A DNA stretch of 40,612 nucleotides from Deltaproteobacteria bacterium (GTDB taxonomy: Bacteria > Myxococcota_A > Polyangia > Polyangiales > JADJMO01), in the NCBI GenBank assembly GCA_022843175.1, contig JALHOE010000068.1:1-40612 (forward strand), written 5' to 3'. The translations under genes and the position numbers were made by a program. The number at the start of each line of letters is the position of its first letter. Position 1 is the stretch's first letter. The notes under the pieces are model-generated. The model was not told the DNA's origin, made no database searches, and was given only the letters and a program-made list of their open reading frames with translations. Below are positions 4,649 through 20,141 of this stretch, in pieces.

Positions 4649-4710
4649 CTCCGTTGTAGGTGGCGGTTTCGCGCTTGTCTGCGGCGCGGAACGCGACATC
4701 CTTTCGCCCC

Positions 4711-5193
4711 ATGCGAACGCGCTTTGCCCTCGTGTTGACGGCGTCGCTCGCGAGCGCGTGCGCGACCGCCGAGGATCCGGAGTCGACGAGCGGTCCCGGA
4801 CGCACCGACTCGGCGGGGACGACGACCGACACCGGCGCGACGAGCGACGCGCCCGCGAGCGACTCGAGCTCCGCCGCCGACACCGGCGCGACCGCGACCG
4901 ACAGCGGCACCGCCGGAGACAGCACCACGCCGATCGACAGCGCCACGCCGATCGACAGCGCGGTCGCGGACTCGGGCGAGATCGACAGCGGCACGGTCGA
5001 CACCGGCACGGTCATGGACACGAGCACGCCTCCCGTGTGCTCCGAGTCGGGCAAGTACGGCGGCAAGTGCAAGACGAACCTCGACTGCGCGATGATCACC
5101 GGCTGCGGCTACGTGTGCTGCGCCTACGATCCGAGCGGCACGATCAGCCTCGGCTGCGGCCGCATCTCCGCCGGCAGCCTCTGCCTGCCGTAG
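4711..5193 (+). CDS. Lipoprotein with S/T/D-rich linker and Cys-rich C-terminal domain
   Basis: 160 residues. Lipoprotein signal MRTRFALVLTASLASAC (Cys17), then about 90 residues of Asp/Ser/Thr/Gly/Ala repeats (TDTGAT, DSATPID and similar), then a compact Cys-rich domain (CSESGKYGGKCKTNLDC, GCGYVCCAY, GCG, SLC) with an even spacing suited to disulfides. I recognise no specific family. The linker resembles those of neighbouring lipoproteins and probably spans from the membrane to expose the Cys-rich head. ATG at 4711 was chosen because the signal starts there; the in-frame ATG at 4660 would place the hydrophobic segment too far inside. Confidence 0.75.
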   Translation: MRTRFALVLTASLASACATAEDPESTSGPGRTDSAGTTTDTGATSDAPASDSSSAADTGATATDSGTAGDSTTPIDSATPIDSAVADSGEIDSGTVDTGTVMDTSTPPVCSESGKYGGKCKTNLDCAMITGCGYVCCAYDPSGTISLGCGRISAGSLCLP

Positions 5194-5203
5194 GTTCAAC
5201 GGC
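5187..5203. terminator. Hairpin between convergent genes
   Basis: GCCGT (5187-5191) and ACGGC (5199-5203) form a 5-bp stem with a 7-base loop over the stop of the Cys-rich lipoprotein and 6 bases before the stop of the convergent gene. There is no T-tract, so it is a weak terminator candidate. Confidence 0.3.
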
Positions 5204-5208
5204 GAGCG

Positions 5209-5946
5209 CTACTTCTTCACGTACGTCGAGATGCTGCCCGTCGTCGTGTAGCCCTGGAACAGTTTGAAGCCGGTGGTCGTCACCGAGTACTGGCCGGTCG
5301 TGCCGACCGTCGACATCGTGGGGCAGCTCATCGTCAGCTTCCAATCGGAGCCGGTGAGCGCCGCGGTGTAGTTGCGGTACTTGTTGGGATAGCCGCCGAC
5401 GACACGGTTGGCCTTCTTCCACGTGGTGCCCGAGACCTCGATCGTCTCGCCGTCGCGACCACCCGGTTGATAGGTGCCGAGGCCGCTCGGGCCGTTGTAT
5501 TCCACGTAGGTCGAGAGCTGGTAGACGCCATCCGCGATCACGCCGCCGGTCCACGTGAGCCCGGGCGGGAGATTCTCGCGACGCGCGTCGAGCACCACGT
5601 AGGGCCCGGGCGTGAGCGTGTTGCAGGGCGGCGGGCCCGTGTCGGCGGGGCTCGTGTCTGCCTTCGCGGTGTCCGGCGCCGTGGCCGTGTCGGCAACCGT
5701 GCCGGTATCGGCCGGCGTTGCGGTGTCGATCGGCGCCGCAGTGTCGGGCGCCGTGCCGGTGTCCTTGATGGAGGTGTCGGGCGTGGGGTCCGCGTCCGGC
5801 GCGGCGTCTTCGTCGACCGCGCCGGTGTCCTCGTCGACCGCCGCGTCCTCGTCGACCGCGGCGTCGGGAGCGATCGTCCCTCCGTCGGTCGAGGACGAAC
5901 AACCGAGCACGAACAGCGAGAGGAGGAGCGCGAGTCTTCCGGTCAT
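5209..5946 (-). CDS. Lipoprotein with D/T/A-rich linker, unknown C-terminal domain
   Basis: 245 residues. Lipoprotein signal MTGRLALLLSLFVLGC (Cys16) with SSS after the Cys, then about 90 residues of Asp/Thr/Ala/Pro repeats (AAVDED, DTATPADTG and similar). The C-terminal ~135 residues form a beta-rich domain with Trp and Tyr positions (TWTGGVIADGVYQLSTYVEY, then TGSDWKLTMSC) that I do not recognise; it resembles a small lipocalin- or jelly-roll-like sheet only in composition. The gene is convergent to 4711-5193 and divergent from 6051. Envelope surface protein is the safest call. Confidence 0.75.
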   Translation of the reverse strand: MTGRLALLLSLFVLGCSSSTDGGTIAPDAAVDEDAAVDEDTGAVDEDAAPDADPTPDTSIKDTGTAPDTAAPIDTATPADTGTVADTATAPDTAKADTSPADTGPPPCNTLTPGPYVVLDARRENLPPGLTWTGGVIADGVYQLSTYVEYNGPSGLGTYQPGGRDGETIEVSGTTWKKANRVVGGYPNKYRNYTAALTGSDWKLTMSCPTMSTVGTTGQYSVTTTGFKLFQGYTTTGSISTYVKK

Positions 5947-6024
5947 GGCGGACGCTCGACGGACCGGACGCCGTTGTATTCACCACTACGACATGAATCC
6001 GTCCCGAGTACGCCGCGATTTCAC

Positions 6025-6039
6025 TGCACGAACGGTGCA
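6025..6039. promoter_or_regulatory. Inverted repeat in a divergent promoter region
   Basis: TGCAC-GAACG-GTGCA is a perfect 5-bp inverted repeat in the 104-bp region between the divergent genes at 5946 and 6051, just 12 bp before the ATG of the latter. It could be a dimeric repressor site; no other evidence. Confidence 0.3.
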
Positions 6040-6050
6040 ATGATGTCGCG

Positions 6051-6584
6051 ATGTGGCGCTGGCCCCTTCCCCTCGTGCTGTTGTGTGCGTCCTGCGCGGG
6101 TACGAGCGCTCCGCCCTCGACACCGCCCGCGAGCGCCCCGGCGCAGTCGGCGAGCGCGCTCCCCTCCACGAGCGCGCTCCCCTCTGCCACGGCGGTCTCC
6201 TCCGCGAGCGCCTCCCCCGACGCGATGCTGCACATCGAGTCGGACCCCTCGAAGCTCCCCGGGAAGAAGCCCTCGGCGACGAAGCCGCTCCCGACGTTCG
6301 AAGAGGCGCTGAAGAGCCAGGTCACCGAAGCCGACGCCGACACACTGACCACCAAGGAGTGCGCGTCTCCGGTGGGCGGCCAGCTCGCCGCAGTCTGTGG
6401 ACTCACCGGGAAGGCTTCGGCGAGCCTCGCGGTCCGCAACGGCAGGCTGATTGGCGCAACGGTGACGTCCGAGCCCGATCAGCCGACGGTGAATGAATGT
6501 CTGCGCGATCGCATTCGTGCGCTCACGTGGCGCGCGGTGCCCGGAGTCACGACGTGCGTGCGAGCGTTCAAGGTCTCCCCGTGA
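6051..6584 (+). CDS. Lipoprotein with AgmX/TonB-C-like terminal region
   Basis: 177 residues. Lipoprotein signal ending LCASC (Cys15), then an A/S/P-rich linker to about residue 58. The C-terminal region has CGLTGKASASLAVRNGRLIGA, then ECLRDRIRALTWRAVPGV and CVRAFKV. This strand-helix-strand pattern, with the C-x-x-x-I motif in the middle, resembles the AgmX/PglI or TonB C-terminal fold common in myxobacterial envelope proteins; this is a fold-level guess. The stop overlaps the GTG start of the next gene (GTGA, 6581-6584), so the two are coupled. Confidence 0.7.
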   Translation: MWRWPLPLVLLCASCAGTSAPPSTPPASAPAQSASALPSTSALPSATAVSSASASPDAMLHIESDPSKLPGKKPSATKPLPTFEEALKSQVTEADADTLTTKECASPVGGQLAAVCGLTGKASASLAVRNGRLIGATVTSEPDQPTVNECLRDRIRALTWRAVPGVTTCVRAFKVSP

Positions 6585-11352: not shown

Positions 11353-12533
11353 AGGAAGCGCTCGAACGCCGCGGGGACGGGGGCCTCGGCGACGGGCCGG
11401 GAGCTCTGCGTGTTCCAGAAGAGAACCGGCCCGGGCGCGCCCGCGGCGGCGTCCGCGAGCAGCGCGGCCATCGCCTTTCCCGTGTAGACCGGCTCGAGCG
11501 CCCACCCGACGGTCGCCCGGGCGCGCTCGACCGCGTTGTCCCCGGCGGCCGTCGGCACGCCGTAGCCACCGCCGACGAAGCGCCCGTCGATGCGCGGCCG
11601 CGCTGCTTCGATCGCGGGGAAGCTCGGATCGCGCGTGCGCGCGAAGGCGATCGTCTCGTCGTGGATCGCGCGCAGCGTCGCCTCGTTCACGGTGGCCGGG
11701 TTCGACGCTCGCACGGCGACGATCTCCGTCGCGAGGCCACCGAGCGCGCAACCGAGCGCGAGGCCCACCGCGGTGCCACCGAGGCCGAGGGGGACATAGA
11801 CGCGCTTCGGTGCGGGCATGGCGCCGGCGCGCACGTCCGCCGCGAGCTCGAGGCCGGCGTTGACGAAGCCCAGCGTGCCGAGCGGCGTCGTCCCCCCCGG
11901 CGCGATGAGATACGCGTCGCTGCCCGGCGGGAACTCGCGCTCGGCCACTGCCCGCGCTTGAACGACGCTCGGGAAGAGGCGTAGCTCGGCCCCCGAGGCT
12001 GCGTCGGCGGCGAGGTTCTTCTTGGTGAGCGAGGACGGCGGCTGCGGCGCGAGGTAGAGCCGCACGGTGAAGCCGAGCGCGCGCCCGAGCAGCGCCGCGG
12101 CGAGGGCTTGGTTCGAGCCGACGCCCCCGAACGTGACGATCCGGCGCTTACCGAGCGCGCGCGCCTCGCCGAAGAAGAGCTCGAGCTTGCGCGCCTTCCC
12201 GCCGCCGTAAATGCGCGCGACGCCCTCGCGAAACGACGCCGAGCGAGTGAAGTCGTCGTCGCGTTTCACGTAGAGCCGATCGTCGAGGAGCGCGGGAGCG
12301 GGCTCGATCGCCGACGGGTATCGGCCGAGCTCGATGCGCGGGAGGCTCTTGGCGAGGGCGGGGAACCGCTCGAAGAGCGGATACGGCGAGCGGACGACGG
12401 GCGGCGGCGCGGAGGGAACCACCGCCGGCGCGCTCGGTGACGGTCCGGCCTCGACGCCGCTCTCGATCCGACGATGGCAGCCGAGCACGACCCCCGCGCC
12501 GAGGAACGCGCGGCGGTCGATCCCGGATCGCAT
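11349..12533 (-). CDS. Tat-type lipoprotein, PLP-dependent D-cysteine desulfhydrase/ACC deaminase-like
   Basis: 394 residues. The N-terminus IDRRAFLGAGVVLGC has a twin-arginine motif (Arg7-Arg8) and a lipobox ending at Cys19, so the folded enzyme should cross by Tat and be lipidated. After a P/S/A linker comes a fold-type-II PLP domain: GGGKARKLELFF (Lys113 as Schiff-base lysine, aligned with GGNKxRKLE of the family), GGVGSNQALAAA, and the phosphate loop PLGLGGTAVGL. The usual SNH after the lysine is SNQ here. The family cleaves D-cysteine or ACC; the substrate is not defined. It overlaps the next gene (ATGA). It is divergent from the MauG gene at 12622. Confidence 0.82.
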   Translation of the reverse strand: MRSGIDRRAFLGAGVVLGCHRRIESGVEAGPSPSAPAVVPSAPPPVVRSPYPLFERFPALAKSLPRIELGRYPSAIEPAPALLDDRLYVKRDDDFTRSASFREGVARIYGGGKARKLELFFGEARALGKRRIVTFGGVGSNQALAAALLGRALGFTVRLYLAPQPPSSLTKKNLAADAASGAELRLFPSVVQARAVAEREFPPGSDAYLIAPGGTTPLGTLGFVNAGLELAADVRAGAMPAPKRVYVPLGLGGTAVGLALGCALGGLATEIVAVRASNPATVNEATLRAIHDETIAFARTRDPSFPAIEAARPRIDGRFVGGGYGVPTAAGDNAVERARATVGWALEPVYTGKAMAALLADAAAGAPGPVLFWNTQSSRPVAEAPVPAAFERFL

Positions 12534-12570
12534 CCGCTGATGAACGACGCGCGCGCGCGGGTTCTTCCCG

Positions 12571-12586
12571 TGGCGCGCCCCTTGCC
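12571..12586 (+). promoter_or_regulatory. Sigma-54 (-24/-12) promoter upstream of the MauG operon
   Basis: TGGCGCGCCCCTTGCC matches the RpoN consensus TGGCACG-N4-TTGCW at the TGGC, CG and TTGC positions with the exact spacing (GG-N10-GC). The predicted start is near 12597; a ribosome site GAGGAAAGGGA follows at 12604-12614 and the ATG at 12622. The operon itself encodes a sigma-54 activator. The reverse strand also reads TGGCAAG-N4-GCGC, a poorer match toward the divergent gene. Confidence 0.6.
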
Positions 12587-12621
12587 ACTGCGCCCGCGAA
12601 CTCGAGGAAAGGGATGGTCTC

Positions 12622-14016
12622 ATGCGTCGTCTGACTTTGACCGCAGTGGTTTCCGCGCTGGCTTTGGGCTGTTCCGACGAAGAGCCCAGCGCGCTGCAGC
12701 CCGACACCGGTGTCGACACAGGTGTCGTCACCGAGGTCGGCACCGACACGGGCTCCCCGGCGGACACCGCGCCCGAGACGCCGGACCCGCTCGACGGCTT
12801 CACCAAGGAGGAGTGGGCGCTGATCAAGACGCTGGGACCGCTGCCGAAGGTACCCGCCGACAAGACCAATGCCTTCGCCGACAACGCGAAGGCCGCGGCG
12901 CTCGGCCAGATGCTCTTCTTCGACAAGAGCTACGCGGGCGCGCTCGCGGTCGGCGACGACGGCACCAACGGCGGCCTCGGCGCGGTGGGCGACACCGGCA
13001 AGGTCTCGTGCGCGAGCTGTCACGAGGGCTCGACGATGGACGACGTGCGGACCAAGCCGAACAACGTCTCGCTCGGCACGGACTTCGGCACCCGCAACGC
13101 GCTCTCGATCGCCAACTCGTCGTTCTACGCGTGGACGAACTGGGGCGGTCGGTTCGACTCGCAGTGGTCGCTCCCGCTCGCGGTCGCCGAGAACCCGAAG
13201 ATCATGAACAGCGGCCGGCTGCAGATCGCGCGCATGCTCTACGCGAAGTACCGCGCCGAGTACGACGCGGTGTTCCCCGTGCCGCTCGACGCGCGGCTCG
13301 ACCCCGCGCACGCGATGGCGTTCCCCGCCGCCGGCAAGCCGGGCGTGGCTGCTTGGGACATGCTCGGCGCCGACGACAAGGACATCCTCAACCGGATCTA
13401 CGCGAACTACGGCAAGGCTCTCGCTGCGTACATGCGGCTCGTCGTCCAGCGGGATGCGCCGCTCGACAAGTACATCGCCGGCGACAAGAGCGCGCTCGGC
13501 GACGCCGAGAAGCGCGGCCTCAAGCTCTTCCTCGGCAAGGGCTGCGTGACCTGCCACTCCGGACCGAACCTCGCGGACGACAAGTTCCACGCCCTCGCCG
13601 TGCTGCAGACCGGACCGAAGGTGCCGGCCGCCGATCTCGGTCGATTCGCCGACGTGCCGCCGCTCCTCACGAGCGTCTTCAACACCGACGGCCAGTACAG
13701 CGACGACCGGGCGACCGGGAAGCTCTCCGGCCTCGCCGCCGACCCCTCGATGAAGGGGCAGTTCCGCACCAAGAGCCTCCGCGGCGTCGCGCCGTCGGGC
13801 CCCTATATGCACTCCGGTCAGCTCGCGACGCTCGAGGAGGTGGTCGCGTACTACGCGAAGGGCGGCTCCGAGACGCCGCCGACCGACGTCACCAAGTCGC
13901 CGCTCATGAAGCCGTTCGTGCTCGCCGGCACCGACAGCGCCGATCTCGTGGCGTTCCTCAAGGCGCTGAGCGGCGCGCCGGTCGCCGCCGAGCTCCGCAA
14001 GGACACGGCGAAGTGA
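12622..14016 (+). CDS. Di-heme cytochrome c peroxidase/MauG-like lipoprotein
   Basis: 464 residues. Lipoprotein signal ending LGC (Cys17), then a DTG-rich linker to about residue 55. Two CxxCH sites bind c-type heme: CASCH (130-134, first domain) and CVTCH (308-312, second domain). GPYMHSGQLATLEEVV near the C-terminus is the family's typical Met/His region. Members either reduce H2O2 or oxidise proteins and metabolites (MauG). ATG at 12622 has GAGGAAAGGGA just upstream. The stop overlaps the GTG of the next gene (GTGA, 14013-14016). Acts in the periplasm or on a membrane surface; electron donor unknown. Confidence 0.92.
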   Translation: MRRLTLTAVVSALALGCSDEEPSALQPDTGVDTGVVTEVGTDTGSPADTAPETPDPLDGFTKEEWALIKTLGPLPKVPADKTNAFADNAKAAALGQMLFFDKSYAGALAVGDDGTNGGLGAVGDTGKVSCASCHEGSTMDDVRTKPNNVSLGTDFGTRNALSIANSSFYAWTNWGGRFDSQWSLPLAVAENPKIMNSGRLQIARMLYAKYRAEYDAVFPVPLDARLDPAHAMAFPAAGKPGVAAWDMLGADDKDILNRIYANYGKALAAYMRLVVQRDAPLDKYIAGDKSALGDAEKRGLKLFLGKGCVTCHSGPNLADDKFHALAVLQTGPKVPAADLGRFADVPPLLTSVFNTDGQYSDDRATGKLSGLAADPSMKGQFRTKSLRGVAPSGPYMHSGQLATLEEVVAYYAKGGSETPPTDVTKSPLMKPFVLAGTDSADLVAFLKALSGAPVAAELRKDTAK

Positions 14017-14876
14017 TCCTCCCGCTCCTCATGGCGGTGGCGGACGTCGCGGCGCCTCCGGCGCTTCCCGCCGCGAAGACGGAGTATTCGCTCCCCTTCG
14101 CGGTGCGGCCGTGGGCGCCACCGACGCTCGCGCGCTTCGACACCGCGCACGCCGCCGATGAGGGGCAGCGCACCACGACGTCCACGCTCACGGCCGGCGC
14201 GCGCGTTGCGCCGGACGTGGGGGTGTACTTCCGCGGCGCGTTCACGGTTCACGCCAAGGAGACGGTCAACACCGCGCTCGGGAACCCGGCGCTGGTCGCG
14301 TTGTTCTCGCCCGCCGTCGCGCCGCGCGTGCGCGTGCCGATCTTCGCAGCGGTCGCCCTGCCTCTCGGCGACGGTGGCGGCGACGTGCCCGACGTTCGGG
14401 CCCGCGCCGCGATGGCGAGCTCGGTGTACGCGCGGCAGGCGATGGACTCCGCGCTCTTCGCCGCGAACTACACCACCTTCGCCGCGGGAGCCGGGCTCGC
14501 CCGGGTGGCGAACGGGCTCACGCTCCAGGTCGAGGCCACGGTCTTTCAGTTGCTCCGTTCGCGGGGCGGCGCGGTCGACCGCGACACGACGCGCACCAAC
14601 CTCACCTCCGGCGCCCACATCGGCGTTGCGTTCCTCGGGTTTCTCAACGTAAGCGTCGAGGTCCACTATCAACGCTGGCTGTCGACACCCGCGCCGGTGA
14701 GGCAGGACGACAGCGCGCGCGACCAACTGACGGTCGGCGGGGGCCTGCGCGCGACGGTCGCGATCGACGAGACGACCGTCGTCCGGCCGGGCATCGGATA
14801 CTTCCAGGCGGTCGACGCGCCGATGGCCAGCGCCGCCTACCGGATCGTCCAGCTCGACCTCCCGATCGTCTTCTGA
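14013..14876 (+). CDS. Probable outer-membrane beta-barrel protein
   Basis: 287 residues from GTG at 14013, overlapping the MauG stop. A short hydrophobic start (ILPLLMAVADVAAPPALPA) acts as a probable signal, followed by alternating hydrophobic/polar strands with turns (TSTLTAGARVAPDVGVYFRGAF, VEATVFQLL, GVAFLGFLNVSVEVHYQRW, GGLRATVAIDETTVVRPGIGYF) and a C-terminal strand ending in Phe (VQLDLPIVF), the usual barrel end signal. No named family. Coupling to a di-heme peroxidase suggests it forms an outer-membrane partner, anchor or conduit; that is inference. Next gene starts 42 bp downstream. Confidence 0.7.
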   Translation: MILPLLMAVADVAAPPALPAAKTEYSLPFAVRPWAPPTLARFDTAHAADEGQRTTTSTLTAGARVAPDVGVYFRGAFTVHAKETVNTALGNPALVALFSPAVAPRVRVPIFAAVALPLGDGGGDVPDVRARAAMASSVYARQAMDSALFAANYTTFAAGAGLARVANGLTLQVEATVFQLLRSRGGAVDRDTTRTNLTSGAHIGVAFLGFLNVSVEVHYQRWLSTPAPVRQDDSARDQLTVGGGLRATVAIDETTVVRPGIGYFQAVDAPMASAAYRIVQLDLPIVF

Positions 14877-14918
14877 GCCGGCGCTCGCGTTTGTCGGACT
14901 TATCTGTACGCTCTCCTC

Positions 14919-16229
14919 GTGACCATCGCGGACACCGTCGACGACAGCGGGACCGCGAAGGGACCGCGCGAGCGCGCGGTGCCCGGCGTGATCGTCGTCT
15001 ACTCGGGCCTCGCCCCGGTCCTGCGCGCGCTGCCGCTCACGCACGGCAAGCTCGTCGTCGGGCGCGACGAGGGCGGTCTGCCCGACGACGAGCGCCTGTC
15101 GCGGCGACACGCCGAGATCGCGTGGGACGGTCAACGTTGGAGCGTGCGCGATCTCGGCAGCCGCAACGGCACCAACGTCAACGGCGCGCGCATCGAGGGC
15201 ACCGTCACGCTCGACGAGCCCCGCGTGGTCCGCGTCGGGCGCACGCTGATGCTGCCACGCGAGGACATCCGCCTGTTCCTCGGCGAGCAGGTCGTCGTCG
15301 AGGACGAGCTCGTCGTCGGCCCGATCGCGCGCCGCGTCCACCTGCGGATCGCGCAAATCGCCTCCGCGGACGAGAACCTGTTGATCACCGGCGAGACCGG
15401 GAGCGGCAAGGAGCACGCCGCGCACGTATTCCACGCGCGCGGGCCCGCCGCCAAGGGGCCGCTCGTCACCGTGAACTGCGCGACCATCCCCGAGGGCGTC
15501 GCCGAACGGCTGCTCTTTGGCGCGCGCAAGGGAGCGTACTCCGGCGCCGAGAACGCGGACGGCTACGTCGTCGCGGCGAACAACGGCGTCCTGTTCCTCG
15601 ACGAGGTGGGTGAGCTCGAGCTCGACGTCCAGGCCAAGCTGCTGCGGCTGCTCGAGACCCGCGAGGTCACCCCGCTCGGCGAGACCCGGAGCCGCAAGGT
15701 AGCCCTTCGATTCTGCTTCGCCACCCACCGCGATCTGCGCCGGGCGGTCGCCGAGGGACGCTTCCGCGAGGATCTCTATCACCGCATCGAGCAGCCGCAC
15801 GTACACCTGCCGCCGCTGCGCGATCGACGCGAGGAGATCCCCTGGCTCCTCGCCCGCGCGCTTCATCGGGTGAGCCCCGAGCTGTCGATGCACGCTTCGT
15901 TCGTCGAGGCGTGCATCCATCGCGGCTGGAGCGGCAACGTGCGCGAGCTCCTCCAGCACGCGCGCGCCGCCGGTCACGCGGCGATGGCCGAAGGCGAGCG
16001 CTGCGTGCTCCACACCCACCTCGATGCGAACGCGGGGCTCGGTGGCGACGAGCGGCGGAGCGAGCCCGGTCCCGAGACGCCGAAGAGTGTTTCGCGCGAG
16101 TCGATCGAGCGCGCGCTGCAGGCCGAGTCCGGGAACGTGGCGGCCGCGGCCCGCGGGCTCGGGCTCCACCGCACGCAGCTCTACCGGCTCCTCAAGCGTT
16201 TTGGCCTCGCTCCGCCGCGGGAGGAGTGA
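14919..16229 (+). CDS. Sigma-54 activator with N-terminal FHA domain
   Basis: 436 residues, start GTG 14919. FHA domain at about 40-115 (GKLVVGRDEGG, LSRRHAEIAW, LGSRNGTNVNG), which reads phosphothreonine. AAA+ domain about 128-350: Walker A GETGSGKE (158-165), Walker B GVLFLDE (223-229), arginine finger region FREDLYHRI, GNVREL. The sigma-54 contact loop is GAYSGA (205-210) instead of GAFTGA. C-terminal FIS-type helix-turn-helix (NVAAAARGLGLHRTQLYRLL). No receiver or GAF domain, so control should come through a Ser/Thr kinase; the next gene, joined by a TGATG overlap (16227-16231), is one. Likely target is the promoter at 12571. Confidence 0.93.
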   Translation: MTIADTVDDSGTAKGPRERAVPGVIVVYSGLAPVLRALPLTHGKLVVGRDEGGLPDDERLSRRHAEIAWDGQRWSVRDLGSRNGTNVNGARIEGTVTLDEPRVVRVGRTLMLPREDIRLFLGEQVVVEDELVVGPIARRVHLRIAQIASADENLLITGETGSGKEHAAHVFHARGPAAKGPLVTVNCATIPEGVAERLLFGARKGAYSGAENADGYVVAANNGVLFLDEVGELELDVQAKLLRLLETREVTPLGETRSRKVALRFCFATHRDLRRAVAEGRFREDLYHRIEQPHVHLPPLRDRREEIPWLLARALHRVSPELSMHASFVEACIHRGWSGNVRELLQHARAAGHAAMAEGERCVLHTHLDANAGLGGDERRSEPGPETPKSVSRESIERALQAESGNVAAAARGLGLHRTQLYRLLKRFGLAPPREE

Positions 16230-17971
16230 TGGGCGCGGTGCGTGCCTCGTACGCGCCGACGGACGTGCTGTTCAAGCTCGGCGCCTACGACGTGCTCGAG
16301 GAGCTGGGCCGCGGCGGGATGGGCACGGTGTACCGCGCGTACTCGCCGCGTCTCTCGCGGTTCGTGGCGATCAAGGTGTTCACGCCGCGAAGGCGCGCCA
16401 ACGAGATCGATCTCCTGCGCTTCCAGAACGAGGTCATGCTCGCGGGCCGGCTCCAGCACCCGAACGTCGTCTCGGTGTTCGACTCGGGTGAGGACGAGGG
16501 CAAGCCGTACTACGTCATGGAGCTGATCGAGGGAGGGAGCCTCGGCGACCTCATCGAGGAGTCGAGCGCGCTGCCGCGGCGCGCGCTCGAGGCGCTGGTG
16601 AAGGTCGCTCGCGCCCTCCATTTCGCCCACGAGAAGGGCGTCGTTCACCGCGACATCAAGCCGGACAACATCCTCCTCCGCAGAGAGGACGAGCCGTGCG
16701 TCACCGACTTCGGCATCGCCAAGGATCTGATCGACGCGCCCGGCCTCACCCGCGAGGGCCGCGCGCTCGGCACGCCGTTCTACATGCCGCCGGAGCAGGC
16801 CAACGGCGAGGTGCAGCACATCGGCCCGCACAGCGACGTCTACGCGCTCGGCGCCACGCTCTATCACGTGCTCGCTGGCCGCCCGCCGTTTCAGCGCCGG
16901 AGCGGCGGCGGCGAAGAAGAGTTCGTCGTGCTCGCGCGAATCCTCAACGAGGATCCGACACCCCCGAGCCGGCTCGCCGCGCGGTTCGGTCGCACGATAC
17001 CGCGCGACCTGGAGACGATTTGCCTCAAGGCGATGGAGAAGGAGGCCGCGCGCCGCTATCCGTCGGCCGCTGCGCTCGGAGACGACCTCGCCCGCTTCCT
17101 CGACGGCGACGTCATCGTGGCGCGCCCGGCGTCCGCGCTGGAGAAGCTGCGGGTGCGCGTCCGCCGCAACCGGGCGGCGTGGCTCGGTGGCGTCGCGGTG
17201 GCGCTGGTCCTCGCCACGCTGCTCGCGGCGTTCGGAGCGCTCGCGGTCGACAGCATGAAGCGGACGAACGCCTCGCTGGTTGAGAAGTCTCGGACCGAAG
17301 CGCTCCACCAGGCCGCGACGCTCGAACGCGCGATCCGGGTGAACATGCTGCAGGGCCGCGCCGATCAGGCGCGCGCGTTGATGCAGCTGCTCAACCAGAG
17401 CCCCGAGGCCGGCGAGATCAAGGTGGTGCGGACCGACCGTCAGCTGGCCTACACCGATCCGTCGACGCGCGACCGGGTGCAGAAGTGGCTCAACAGCCCC
17501 GGCGTCATCGCGAAGATCGCCAAGGAGCACCCCGACATGCTGCCGGCGGTCGACGTGCTGCAGCGCGTCGCCTTCCCGCGGATCGACGCGGCGACCACCG
17601 CGGCCGAGACGGTGCTCGTCGAGAAGGAGCCGTGGAATCGCGCGCTCCTCACCGCCAAGCCGCAGCACTACGAAGAGCTGCGCAGCGGCACTCCCTACCT
17701 CGTCGTGCTGTGGCCGATCGAGAACAGCCGGGAGTGCCGGGTGTGTCACAGCGATCCGGCGGGCGACAGCTACGCCAACGATCCGGTGCGCGCAGTACTG
17801 GTTGTGCGGCGCTCGCAAGCGGAGGTCGTCCGCACGCTGCAGGAGAACGAGCGGGCGACGCTCCGGGTCGGTGCATTGACGGCCGTCGCGTTCGTGGTCC
17901 TGATCTTCTTCTTCGGGAGGGTGCTCGGGTTCCGCCCGCGGCGCGATCCCTTCGCAGCACCCCGGTCATGA
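16229..17971 (+). CDS. Ser/Thr kinase with extracytoplasmic heme-c sensor domain
   Basis: 580 residues. Hanks kinase at 20-295: GRGGMGTVY (28-35), VAIK Lys49, HRDIKPDN (140-147), DFG (160-162), GTPFYMPPEQ activation segment. TM1 about 316-340 (WLGGVAVALVLATLLAAFGA), then a ~205-residue outer domain with LWPIENSRECRVCHSDP; C503-R-V-C506-H507 is a c-type heme site in the context used by DUF3365/Tll0287-like and related cache-type heme sensors. TM2 about 548-563, short basic tail. So heme is on the outside and kinase inside. Start ATG 16229 overlaps the activator stop; its own stop overlaps the second MauG gene (ATGA). Predicted to phosphorylate the FHA activator. Confidence 0.92.
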   Translation: MGAVRASYAPTDVLFKLGAYDVLEELGRGGMGTVYRAYSPRLSRFVAIKVFTPRRRANEIDLLRFQNEVMLAGRLQHPNVVSVFDSGEDEGKPYYVMELIEGGSLGDLIEESSALPRRALEALVKVARALHFAHEKGVVHRDIKPDNILLRREDEPCVTDFGIAKDLIDAPGLTREGRALGTPFYMPPEQANGEVQHIGPHSDVYALGATLYHVLAGRPPFQRRSGGGEEEFVVLARILNEDPTPPSRLAARFGRTIPRDLETICLKAMEKEAARRYPSAAALGDDLARFLDGDVIVARPASALEKLRVRVRRNRAAWLGGVAVALVLATLLAAFGALAVDSMKRTNASLVEKSRTEALHQAATLERAIRVNMLQGRADQARALMQLLNQSPEAGEIKVVRTDRQLAYTDPSTRDRVQKWLNSPGVIAKIAKEHPDMLPAVDVLQRVAFPRIDAATTAAETVLVEKEPWNRALLTAKPQHYEELRSGTPYLVVLWPIENSRECRVCHSDPAGDSYANDPVRAVLVVRRSQAEVVRTLQENERATLRVGALTAVAFVVLIFFFGRVLGFRPRRDPFAAPRS

Positions 17972-18981
17972 AGCCCGCCGCCCGCACGCTCCTGCTCTCG
18001 CTCGCGCTCGTCGCGGCGTGCCGGCGCGAACGCGCGGCGGTGACGGAGATCCCGAAGACGCCGCGTGGCCTGCCCGAGCACGTCGATCCCGGAGACAACC
18101 CCACCACGCTCGCCAAGGTCACGCTCGGGCGGTTCCTCTTCTTCGATCCGCGCATGAGCACGACCGACTTCATGTCGTGCGCGGACTGCCACCGCGAGGA
18201 CCACGGGTGGGCCGGGCGGGACAGCAAGAGCGTCAACGCGATCGGCAAACGCACGCGGCGCAAGGCGCTGAGCGCGGCCAACGCCGCCTACCCCACCACA
18301 TTCACGTGGAACGGGCGGGCCGACACGCTCGAGGGCGTGATCTCCGTGGGGTGGTCGCAGCTCGGAATGACCGACGAAGAGGTCATCGCCAAGAAGCTCG
18401 ACGGCATCCCCGAGTATCACGCGTTGTTCGAGAAGGCGTTCGGCGCGCCGCCCACCGGCCTGCGCATCCGCCAAGCGGTCGCGGCGTACCTCCGCGTCGT
18501 GAAGGTCGGCGACTCGCCGTACGACCGCTTCATGGCGGGCGACACGTCGGCGCTCGGCGAGCCCGCGAAGCGCGGGCTCAACGCCTTCAACACCCTCGGT
18601 TGCCCGAGCTGTCACGCGCCTCCGCTCTTCTCCGACTGGAAGTTTCACAACGCCGGCGTCGGCCTCGCCGACGACGACGATCAGGGTCGGTTCGAGCACA
18701 CCAAGGTCGAAGAGGACCGCAAACGGTTCCGTACGCCGAGCCTGCGTAACGTGGCCAACACCGGGCCGTGGTTCCACGACGGCTCGGCGGCAGCGCTCGA
18801 GGACGCGATCGCGCTCATGGCCTCCGGCGGCGTCGACAACCCGCGGCTCGATCCCCAGTTCAAGAGACGCACCCCGACACCGAGCGAGGTCGCGGAGCTC
18901 AAGGCGTTCCTTCTGAGCCTGTCGGGGACGCCGACGTTCGAGGCGCCGAAGACGCTCCCCGGCGGACGACCGCGCACGTAG
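17968..18981 (+). CDS. Second di-heme peroxidase/MauG-like lipoprotein
   Basis: 337 residues. Lipoprotein signal MKPAARTLLLSLALVAAC (Cys18). Heme sites CADCH (71-75) and CPSCH (212-216). Conserved TFTWNGRADTLEGVI and GPWFHDGSAAALEDAI regions are typical of short MauG/CcpA proteins; the catalytic heme region has the Trp/Asn pattern seen in this family. It lacks the DTG linker of the first MauG (12622) and is about 125 residues shorter, so the two are not recent duplicates. Joined to the kinase gene by an ATGA overlap. The last 83 bases overlap the convergent kinase gene ending at 18899. Acts in the envelope; substrate unknown. Confidence 0.92.
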   Translation: MKPAARTLLLSLALVAACRRERAAVTEIPKTPRGLPEHVDPGDNPTTLAKVTLGRFLFFDPRMSTTDFMSCADCHREDHGWAGRDSKSVNAIGKRTRRKALSAANAAYPTTFTWNGRADTLEGVISVGWSQLGMTDEEVIAKKLDGIPEYHALFEKAFGAPPTGLRIRQAVAAYLRVVKVGDSPYDRFMAGDTSALGEPAKRGLNAFNTLGCPSCHAPPLFSDWKFHNAGVGLADDDDQGRFEHTKVEEDRKRFRTPSLRNVANTGPWFHDGSAAALEDAIALMASGGVDNPRLDPQFKRRTPTPSEVAELKAFLLSLSGTPTFEAPKTLPGGRPRT

Positions 18982-19978
18982 TCGCGGCGATCGTCGCGGC
19001 GATCGCGACGGCGACGAGGAGCACACGCCGTCCGTCACTGCGCCCGCCGACGGTTCGGTCGATCGTCTCGTCCACGGTGGAGACGCTCGGCCGCGACGCG
19101 CGGTGCTCGGCGACCGCCGGTGCGTCGAACACCGGCGCCGTGCTGTCGTGGTGCGCCGCGAGCACGGCGACGACCTCACGGAGATCGCGCGGACGCTGCG
19201 CCGGATCCCGCGACAGCATTTTCATCACCACTTCGCGCACGTCCGCGGGCACGTCGACCTCGAGCGGCGCGATCGGATCGAAGGTGATCGCGCGGAAGAT
19301 CGCCTGCACGCTGTCGCCCGCGATCGGGTGCCGGCCGCTCAGCATCTCGTAGAGCATGAGGCCGATCGACCACAGGTCGGCGCGGTGGTCGACGCCGCGC
19401 GCGCCGCGCGCCTGCTCCGGCGACATGTACCGCGGGGTGCCGAGGCGATCGCCGGACTCGGTGAGCGCGGGCGTCGAGAGCGAGGCGGCGAACTTCGCGA
19501 CCCCGAAGTCGAGCACCCGAACCTCGACGGCGCCGTCTTCGCGCGGGCTGAGGAACACGTTCTCCGGCTTGAGATCGCGGTGCACGATGGCGTGGGCGTG
19601 GGCGGCGCCAACGGCTGCGATCACCGGCATCATCAACGTGAGCGCGGCCCGCAGCGACAGGCGCGGGTTTCGCTCGAGGTGCGCGCGCATCGTCTCACCG
19701 GCGAGCAGATCCATGACCATAAACGGCTGTTCGCCGTCCTCGACGCCATGGATGGTCACCACGTTGGGGTGGCGGAGCGTCATCGCGGCGCGCGCCTCAC
19801 GGAGGAAGCGGCGTCGCCGTTCGTCGCTGCTGCTGGAGCCCTTGAGGAACTTCACCGCGCGCGGCTCGCCGGTCTCGAGCTCGCGCGCGGCCCACACCTC
19901 GCCCATCCCGCCCTCGCCGAGCAAGCGATCGAGCTGAAACCGCCCGACGACGGCTCCCTCGCGAAGCGCGACCCCCAT
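18899..19978 (-). CDS. Membrane-anchored Ser/Thr protein kinase
   Basis: 359 residues. Hanks-type domain 14-275: GEGGMGEVW (21-29), AVKFLK Lys43, HRDLKPEN (133-140), DFGVAK (157-162), GTPRYMSPEQA activation segment. All catalytic residues present. A short S/T-rich linker leads to one TM helix (about 318-338) and a 20-residue outer tail, with no sensor domain. The ATG at 19976-19978 is next to the first strand; upstream in-frame codons would add an unlikely Arg/Ser-rich segment. Its 3' end lies over the last 83 bases of MauG2 on the other strand. It could signal together with the heme kinase, but no genetic link is visible. Confidence 0.9.
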   Translation of the reverse strand: MGVALREGAVVGRFQLDRLLGEGGMGEVWAARELETGEPRAVKFLKGSSSSDERRRRFLREARAAMTLRHPNVVTIHGVEDGEQPFMVMDLLAGETMRAHLERNPRLSLRAALTLMMPVIAAVGAAHAHAIVHRDLKPENVFLSPREDGAVEVRVLDFGVAKFAASLSTPALTESGDRLGTPRYMSPEQARGARGVDHRADLWSIGLMLYEMLSGRHPIAGDSVQAIFRAITFDPIAPLEVDVPADVREVVMKMLSRDPAQRPRDLREVVAVLAAHHDSTAPVFDAPAVAEHRASRPSVSTVDETIDRTVGGRSDGRRVLLVAVAIAATIAATTCAVVRRGASSAPRTSASPTGSEGTP

Positions 19979-20040
19979 CCCTCGAGCGAGACTACCCGTT
20001 GATCCGCGGGTTTTCGCGGCGAGTGACACAGGCCCCCCAC

Positions 20041-20054
20041 GTGTGTCGTCACAC
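20041..20054. promoter_or_regulatory. Inverted repeat between divergent genes
   Basis: GTGTG-TCGT-CACAC, perfect 5-bp arms (6 with flanking C/G), lies 63 bp upstream of the kinase start (minus) and 125 bp upstream of the propeller gene (plus). It could be a dimeric regulator site. Confidence 0.3.
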
Positions 20055-20125
20055 GGGTCGCGTCCCTCGGGCAGGCGCGCGCTCCGGAACCACAAAAACC
20101 AGCAACAGCTCGATCTGCGTTCCTC

Positions 20126-20141
20126 TGGCACCGTCCGTGCT
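20126..20141 (+). promoter_or_regulatory. Sigma-54 (-24/-12) promoter upstream of the propeller lipoprotein
   Basis: TGGCACCGTCCGTGCT fits TGGCACG-N4-TTGCW with two mismatches and exact GG-N10-GC spacing, preceded by the usual C/T (CTGGCAC). Predicted start near 20152, then ribosome site GGGGAGG (20164-20170) and ATG 20179, a normal leader length. Confidence 0.55.

Follow-up and report, generated by a model that had tools for sequence, protein, structure and literature searches.

We propose that five same-strand genes in the window (the whole stretch of 40,612 nucleotides that was analysed, on contig C68 of a 9.75-Mb source genome in 470 contigs) form a self-regulating operon put together from separate modules. 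In this operon, a Hanks-type kinase carrying a heme-Cache domain for NO or redox state would act through an FHA activator on a sigma-54 promoter at 12571, which drives the genes themselves. We hold this proposal tentatively, at somewhat under an even chance, and consider a sigma-54-type module for periplasmic NO and nitrogen oxides or for redox state to be the most likely reading of the locus. The promoter, the domains of the proteins, the heme motif, the kinase clade and the sensor fold are shown by sequence and model comparison.

The five genes, MauG1, barrel, FHA activator, kinase and MauG2, are all confirmed on the plus strand with the overlaps that had been reported for them: GTGA between MauG1 and the barrel, TGATG between activator and kinase, and ATGA between kinase and MauG2. 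The original prediction had most of the genes joined in this way, which is correct for three of the four joints; the fourth, between barrel and activator, is a 42-bp gap without overlap. Pfam finds CCP_MauG in both MauG1 and MauG2, Pkinase in the kinase, and FHA, Sigma54_activat and HTH_8 in the activator. The barrel has no Pfam match and its family has no name. The reading frame of the barrel stays open across all of MauG1 (window 12474-14876, 800 codons), so where the barrel begins is uncertain; from the GTG start its signal peptide seems short. Taken as a whole, what the original prediction observed is confirmed, its interpretation is partly supported, and the regulatory circuit that it drew is plausible but unproven.

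Features of the proposed operon and its surroundings (positions are those of the window)
Feature	Position	Strand	Remark
Sigma-54 -24/-12 promoter, TGGCGCGCCCCTTGCC	12571..12586	+	Short gap to divergent PALP gene
MauG1: secreted diheme CCP_MauG protein	12622..14016	+	Tyr at axial-Met position, second heme
Barrel: outer-membrane beta-barrel, family linked to nitrate/nitrite/NO genes	14013..14876	+	
FHA - AAA+ (sigma-54 activator) - Fis-type HTH protein	14919..16229	+	
Hanks-type Ser/Thr kinase, C-terminal periplasmic heme-Cache domain between two TM helices	16229..17971	+	
Heme-Cache sensor domain of the kinase, about residues 342-546	17252..17866	+	
Met373, invariant, candidate distal heme ligand	17345..17347	+	Compare Met60 of GSU0935
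CRVCH heme-c attachment motif, residues 503-507	17735..17749	+	Between two hydrophobic segments
MauG2: diheme CCP_MauG lipoprotein-like protein	17968..18981	+	Met at axial position
pknR: second Hanks kinase, convergent	18899..20131	-	Kinases of its clade lie near the two nearest activator homologues

A sigma-54 promoter heading the operon had been predicted, and the site at 12571 bears this out. It fits TGGCGCG-N4-TTGC, is the sole exact match within the window, and scores 23 of 25.5, the best among 81,194 window positions; equally high scores occur at only 2 of 628,213 positions in related loci. Across the 9.75 Mb of the genome the exact motif is not enriched (14 occurrences, against 32 for the reversed control), so the significance of the site rests on its position just before the first gene. 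No sigma-70 promoter was found in the operon region, where terminator-like sites are at chance level only, nor was there a clear enhancer repeat upstream of the promoter. Comparable sigma-54 sites were found upstream of neither the MauG1 orthologues nor the other heme kinases.

The kinase is a Hanks kinase by its profile match (PF00069, 1e-46) and by the presence of the Gly loop, Lys, HRD and DFG. Its sensor half is rare, with matches in 2 of 183 genomes of the order and 11 of 377 of the phylum, source genome included. Ten homologues, full-length or contig-truncated, come from nine other Myxococcota genomes and are built alike, as kinase - TM - periplasmic domain - TM. In the tree, the kinase domains of these proteins fall into a single clade (support 95/98), which together with the common layout is consistent with one old fusion. 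Conservation of the CxxCH among close homologues, on which the original prediction depended, held: it is present in the window kinase and in nine of the ten others, and among the residues of ten aligned sensors that could contact heme, only M373, C503, C506 and H507 are invariant. The exception is L032 (3207-4751), whose frame passes directly from the KPI stretch to where the last TM helix ends; this is either a real deletion or an assembly error in a low-coverage contig. A plasmid search returned generic kinases only.

Structural and profile comparisons point to a Cache fold for this domain. An AlphaFold model of the sensor built from four sequences is modest (mean pLDDT 63) and, at that moderate confidence, places the CxxCH loop between two core strands, as in a Cache domain with an inserted heme loop. 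Its best PDB match in Foldseek is the heme-c domain of GSU0935 (E 2.3e-4, probability 1.00); among the matches listed by VIA-align, Cache domains stand at Z of about 10 and GSU0935 does not appear. Aligned by hhalign with PF11845 members from related genomes, the ten-sensor profile gave a probability of 95.7 (E 9.5e-9) with CxxCH on CxxCH, against 0.2 for the reversed-profile control, and hmmsearch gave weak matches that were nonetheless collinear. Searching PDB sequences with phmmer yielded chance matches only, for the sensor and likewise for one PF11845 member. At the Pfam gathering cut-off PF11845 matches neither the kinase nor anything else in the genome, so we call the sensor a divergent relative rather than a PF11845 member: a divergent heme-Cache domain with predicted heme loading. 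The heme-c domain outside the membrane that had been proposed thus gains backing from a conserved CxxCH and a heme-Cache fold, with the heme itself predicted.

Heme-Cache domains fused to signaling outputs bind NO tightly (PMC12889525), and Met60, the distal ligand of GSU0935, leaves the heme upon oxidation and gives way to NO (PMC8396549). The other heme-Cache proteins sampled in the phylum (L200-L204) are, judged by eye, histidine kinase or chemoreceptor fusions. The joining of a heme-Cache domain to a Hanks kinase, found across several Myxococcota families, looks new; fusions of Cache domains to Ser/Thr kinases were counted as a class as early as 2016 (PMC4822843), so the new point is the heme version only. 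A heme-Cache-like domain related to the kinase sensor, with two CxxCH, also occurs in four membrane proteins (L196:4281-6071, L197:4550-6388, L198:3566-5434 and L199:305-2230), each of which ends in a cytoplasmic part.

The activator combines an AAA+ sigma-54 domain (PF00158, 7e-52) with an HTH (HTH_8, 9e-9) and carries GAYSGA in place of GAFTGA in its loop at 15531-15548. In all fifteen homologues the Thr position of that loop is Ser (13 GAYSGA, 1 GAFSGA, 1 GAISGA), and the FHA SR-H motif is readable in the fifteen. These sequences (L115-L129) make up an FHA activator subfamily that is marked by this Ser and is usually encoded next to a Hanks kinase. Homologues at 47-55% identity adjoin Hanks kinases of several clades; in eight of ten loci, near-duplicates among them, a kinase lies next to the activator homologue or at one gene's distance, so activators of this type do look to be paired with a kinase. 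The placing of an FHA activator and a Hanks kinase in one operon is thus borne out.

The kinase that serves the activator may instead be pknR, an alternative to be taken seriously. In G051, a genome of the same family, the closest two activator homologues (L115 and L116; 55% and 53%) are convergent to a pknR-clade kinase, with one gene between, in the convergent layout seen here, and pknR groups with those two kinases at support 100/99. The only pair of the operon that recurs elsewhere, kinase and MauG2 in G051 (L011; 58% and 50% identity, respectively), stands alone without an activator. From the gene positions, the arrangement suggests how the operon may have arisen: the heme kinase-MauG2 pair sits where a single gene separates activator and pknR in G051, and pknR still follows MauG2 here. 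The main rival to our proposal builds on these facts, and holds that pknR serves the FHA activator and that the pair of heme kinase and MauG2 entered an activator-pknR locus older than itself, where it has its own unlinked targets and shares the operon for co-expression only. Against this, activator and heme kinase overlap by TGATG within what looks like a single transcript, MauG2 is joined on by its ATGA overlap, and the kinases beside activator homologues come from many clades, which means that partners can be exchanged. We judge the pknR account to be rather unlikely.

The barrel family brings nitrogen oxides into the picture. Homologues occur in 54 of 177 genomes of the order, with four copies in the source genome, and 55 of 61 family sequences have a terminal Phe together with alternating hydrophobic residues, the signal for outer-membrane insertion. 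Neighbors at the first 20 loci include NapA/NapB, NarK, NrfA, NnrS, the nitrate ABC transporter (Nrt) and a Cu-oxidase/cytochrome fusion resembling NirK. A further 40 held-out loci were fetched after the reference genes had been fixed, and 36 loci around other parts of the operon served as controls; a nitrogen-oxide gene is present in 13 of the 40 and in none of the 36 (Fisher p 9e-5, an optimistic value because several genomes are close relatives). The family (window 14013-14876; L061-L080, L156-L195) is a candidate nitrogen-oxide porin. The window copy has no nitrogen-oxide gene beside it, so its own link to nitrogen oxides is by family only. None of the barrel homologues in the loci examined neighbors a MauG-type gene. 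That the barrel might be a BBP2 porin, of the sort that accompanies MauG1 orthologues, was considered and rejected for want of a profile match; AlphaFold from the single sequence gave a pLDDT of 31.

The catalytic and axial residues of known CCP/MauG enzymes are well established. MauG1 and MauG2 each have two CxxCH and the CCP_MauG fold, and both score far below NCBIfam equivalog cut-offs. Where CCPs carry the axial Met, MauG1 and its eight orthologues (9/9) have Tyr, as in MbnH (aligned with 6e1c), and MauG2 and its G051 homologue have Met. In sequence alignment both proteins lack the peroxidatic heme's distal Gln/Glu at the CCP-aligned positions; a Glu is kept in the MauG1 orthologues, displaced by about three positions, and MauG2 is without any. 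Peroxidase activity is thus not to be assumed, and the peroxidase output of the original prediction is doubtful. The operon shows no evident protein substrate of the MauG/MbnH kind, methylamine dehydrogenase or MbnP. Orthologues of MauG1 (40-61%) have, in L106, L108 and L109, a BBP2 porin and a secreted cupredoxin-like protein as neighbors. Within the orthologue set L105-L112, the secreted protein at these three loci is of a cupredoxin/CarboxypepD_reg type, L106 adds a five-CxxCH cytochrome, and L108 has a histidine kinase-FHA fusion (4699-6162) directly upstream of its MauG1 orthologue.

The second rival was also the view of the original prediction: that the heme answers redox potential or peroxide rather than NO, and that the output is a set of periplasmic diheme redox enzymes handling oxidants. 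GSU0582 and GSU0935 are read as redox-linked switches, with the Met ligand bound if reduced and released if oxidised (PMC8396549), and Met373 shows the conservation expected of such a ligand. The operon holds two diheme CCP/MauG proteins, one of which is also the kinase's partner in L011. On the other side stand the missing Gln/Glu at the peroxidase positions of both proteins, and the barrel family and the NO-sensing preprint (PMC12889525), which point to nitrogen oxides. We regard this reading, too, as rather unlikely. The sensor relatives point to NO or redox state, and the barrel family to nitrogen oxides, in preference to peroxide.

The claim of a self-contained system is not supported by comparison with other genomes. 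Conservation of the gene order in other Myxococcota, without which the claim was to fall, was looked for and not found: the five-gene order is absent from the 183 order genomes and 377 phylum genomes sampled, and a conserved five-gene system is rejected. In the ten homologue loci, some on short contigs, none of activator, MauG1 or barrel lies beside the kinase. The full set occurs in one sampled genome only, which makes the operon a recent composite rather than a conserved system. A chance same-strand run in a dense genome, with co-transcription possible and no signaling loop, would fit this lack of conservation and the at least 152 kinase matches in the genome, which make kinases near other genes common, but is very improbable given four-base overlaps at three of the four joints, an activator of sigma-54 type encoded within a gene run that a strong sigma-54 promoter heads, and a MauG2 kept beside the kinase in a second genome.

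Returning to the self-regulating operon, we hypothesize the following course of events. A covalently bound heme would have His507 as its proximal and Met373 as its distal ligand. Nitrogen oxides or oxidising conditions in the periplasm would lead the heme to bind NO, or to change its ligation with redox state, upon which the Cache domain would move the TM helices and activate the cytoplasmic kinase. Phosphothreonine on the kinase or the activator would be read by the FHA domain, releasing the AAA+ activator to open the 12571 promoter. Output of the barrel, a probable channel for nitrate/nitrite-type anions, of the MauG-type oxidases, and of the sensing pair itself would then rise. In this scheme heme loading, the ligand, phosphotransfer, the activator target and the enzyme activities are what we infer. 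The invariance of Met373 and CxxCH, the GSU0935 fold, the PF11845 profile match, the NO binding of published relatives, the operon overlaps, the kinases beside activator homologues, the sigma-54 site and the barrel neighbors all count in favor of the mechanism; the unique gene order, the pknR pairing, the GAYSGA loop, the window barrel without a nitrogen-oxide neighbor, the modest sensor model and a sensor out of reach of the Pfam model count against it. Its most specific form, in which the Hanks kinase senses periplasmic NO through a heme-c Cache domain and, by phosphothreonine-FHA recognition, controls a sigma-54 operon for a nitrogen-oxide channel and two non-classical diheme enzymes, is possible but on the unlikely side.

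If the proposal is right, it suggests that bacteria may use eukaryote-like kinases to sense NO or redox state outside the cell, and it would bring the sensing of extracellular gas and redox state to the many myxobacterial Ser/Thr kinases, most of which are orphans. The heme-Cache domain has only recently been defined as an extracytoplasmic NO sensor, and the kinase clade would widen its outputs. For the heme kinase there would be a ligand that can be tested and, within its own operon, a candidate target, and the barrel family is a candidate route by which nitrogen oxides cross the outer membrane of Myxococcota.

The closest known relatives of the sensor are the sCache_heme domains (DUF3365/Tll0287, PF11845), exemplified by GSU0935/GSU0582 and an NO-binding protein of P. 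azotoformans (PMC12889525, PMC8396549). With these it shares a periplasmic Cache fold, a CxxCH insertion before the last core strand, a candidate distal Met in the N-terminal helix, and a signaling output fused through TM helices; it differs in that the output is a Hanks Ser/Thr kinase, that the sensor lies C-terminal to the catalytic domain, and that it is too divergent for the Pfam model. The outputs given in the heme-Cache preprint are histidine kinases, MCPs, and GGDEF/EAL or cyclic-nucleotide enzymes; serine or threonine kinases appear nowhere in its text (PMC12889525). Like PknB/PASTA-type kinases, the protein has an N-terminal cytoplasmic Hanks kinase, a TM helix and an extracytoplasmic C-terminal sensor, with the PASTA repeats replaced by the heme-Cache domain and a second TM helix.

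FHA-domain sigma-54 enhancer-binding proteins of myxobacteria were reportedly described by Jelsbak, Givskov and Kaiser in 2005. The activator resembles them in its FHA, AAA+ and Fis-type HTH domains and in having kinase genes nearby, and departs from them in its conserved GAYSGA loop and in sharing an operon with a heme-sensing kinase and diheme enzymes. Both diheme proteins have the CCP_MauG fold and two CxxCH of MauG/MbnH and bacterial CCP, the Tyr of MauG1 being of MauG/MbnH type and the Met of MauG2 of CCP type, whereas the distal Gln/Glu of bacterial CCP is absent from the aligned positions and the BBP2 porin and cupredoxin around the MauG1 orthologues set these apart from either group.

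Sigma-54 control in NO metabolism is familiar from NorR. Such control of NO/oxygen metabolism is also described for NmpRSTU-type systems (PMC11841059). As in both, a gas or respiratory-state signal would be passed to a sigma-54 activator; unlike in either, sensing would be extramembrane by heme c and the relay would run by Ser/Thr phosphorylation. The operon would be, in function, a Ser/Thr-kinase counterpart of NorR- or two-component-type control by NO or redox state.
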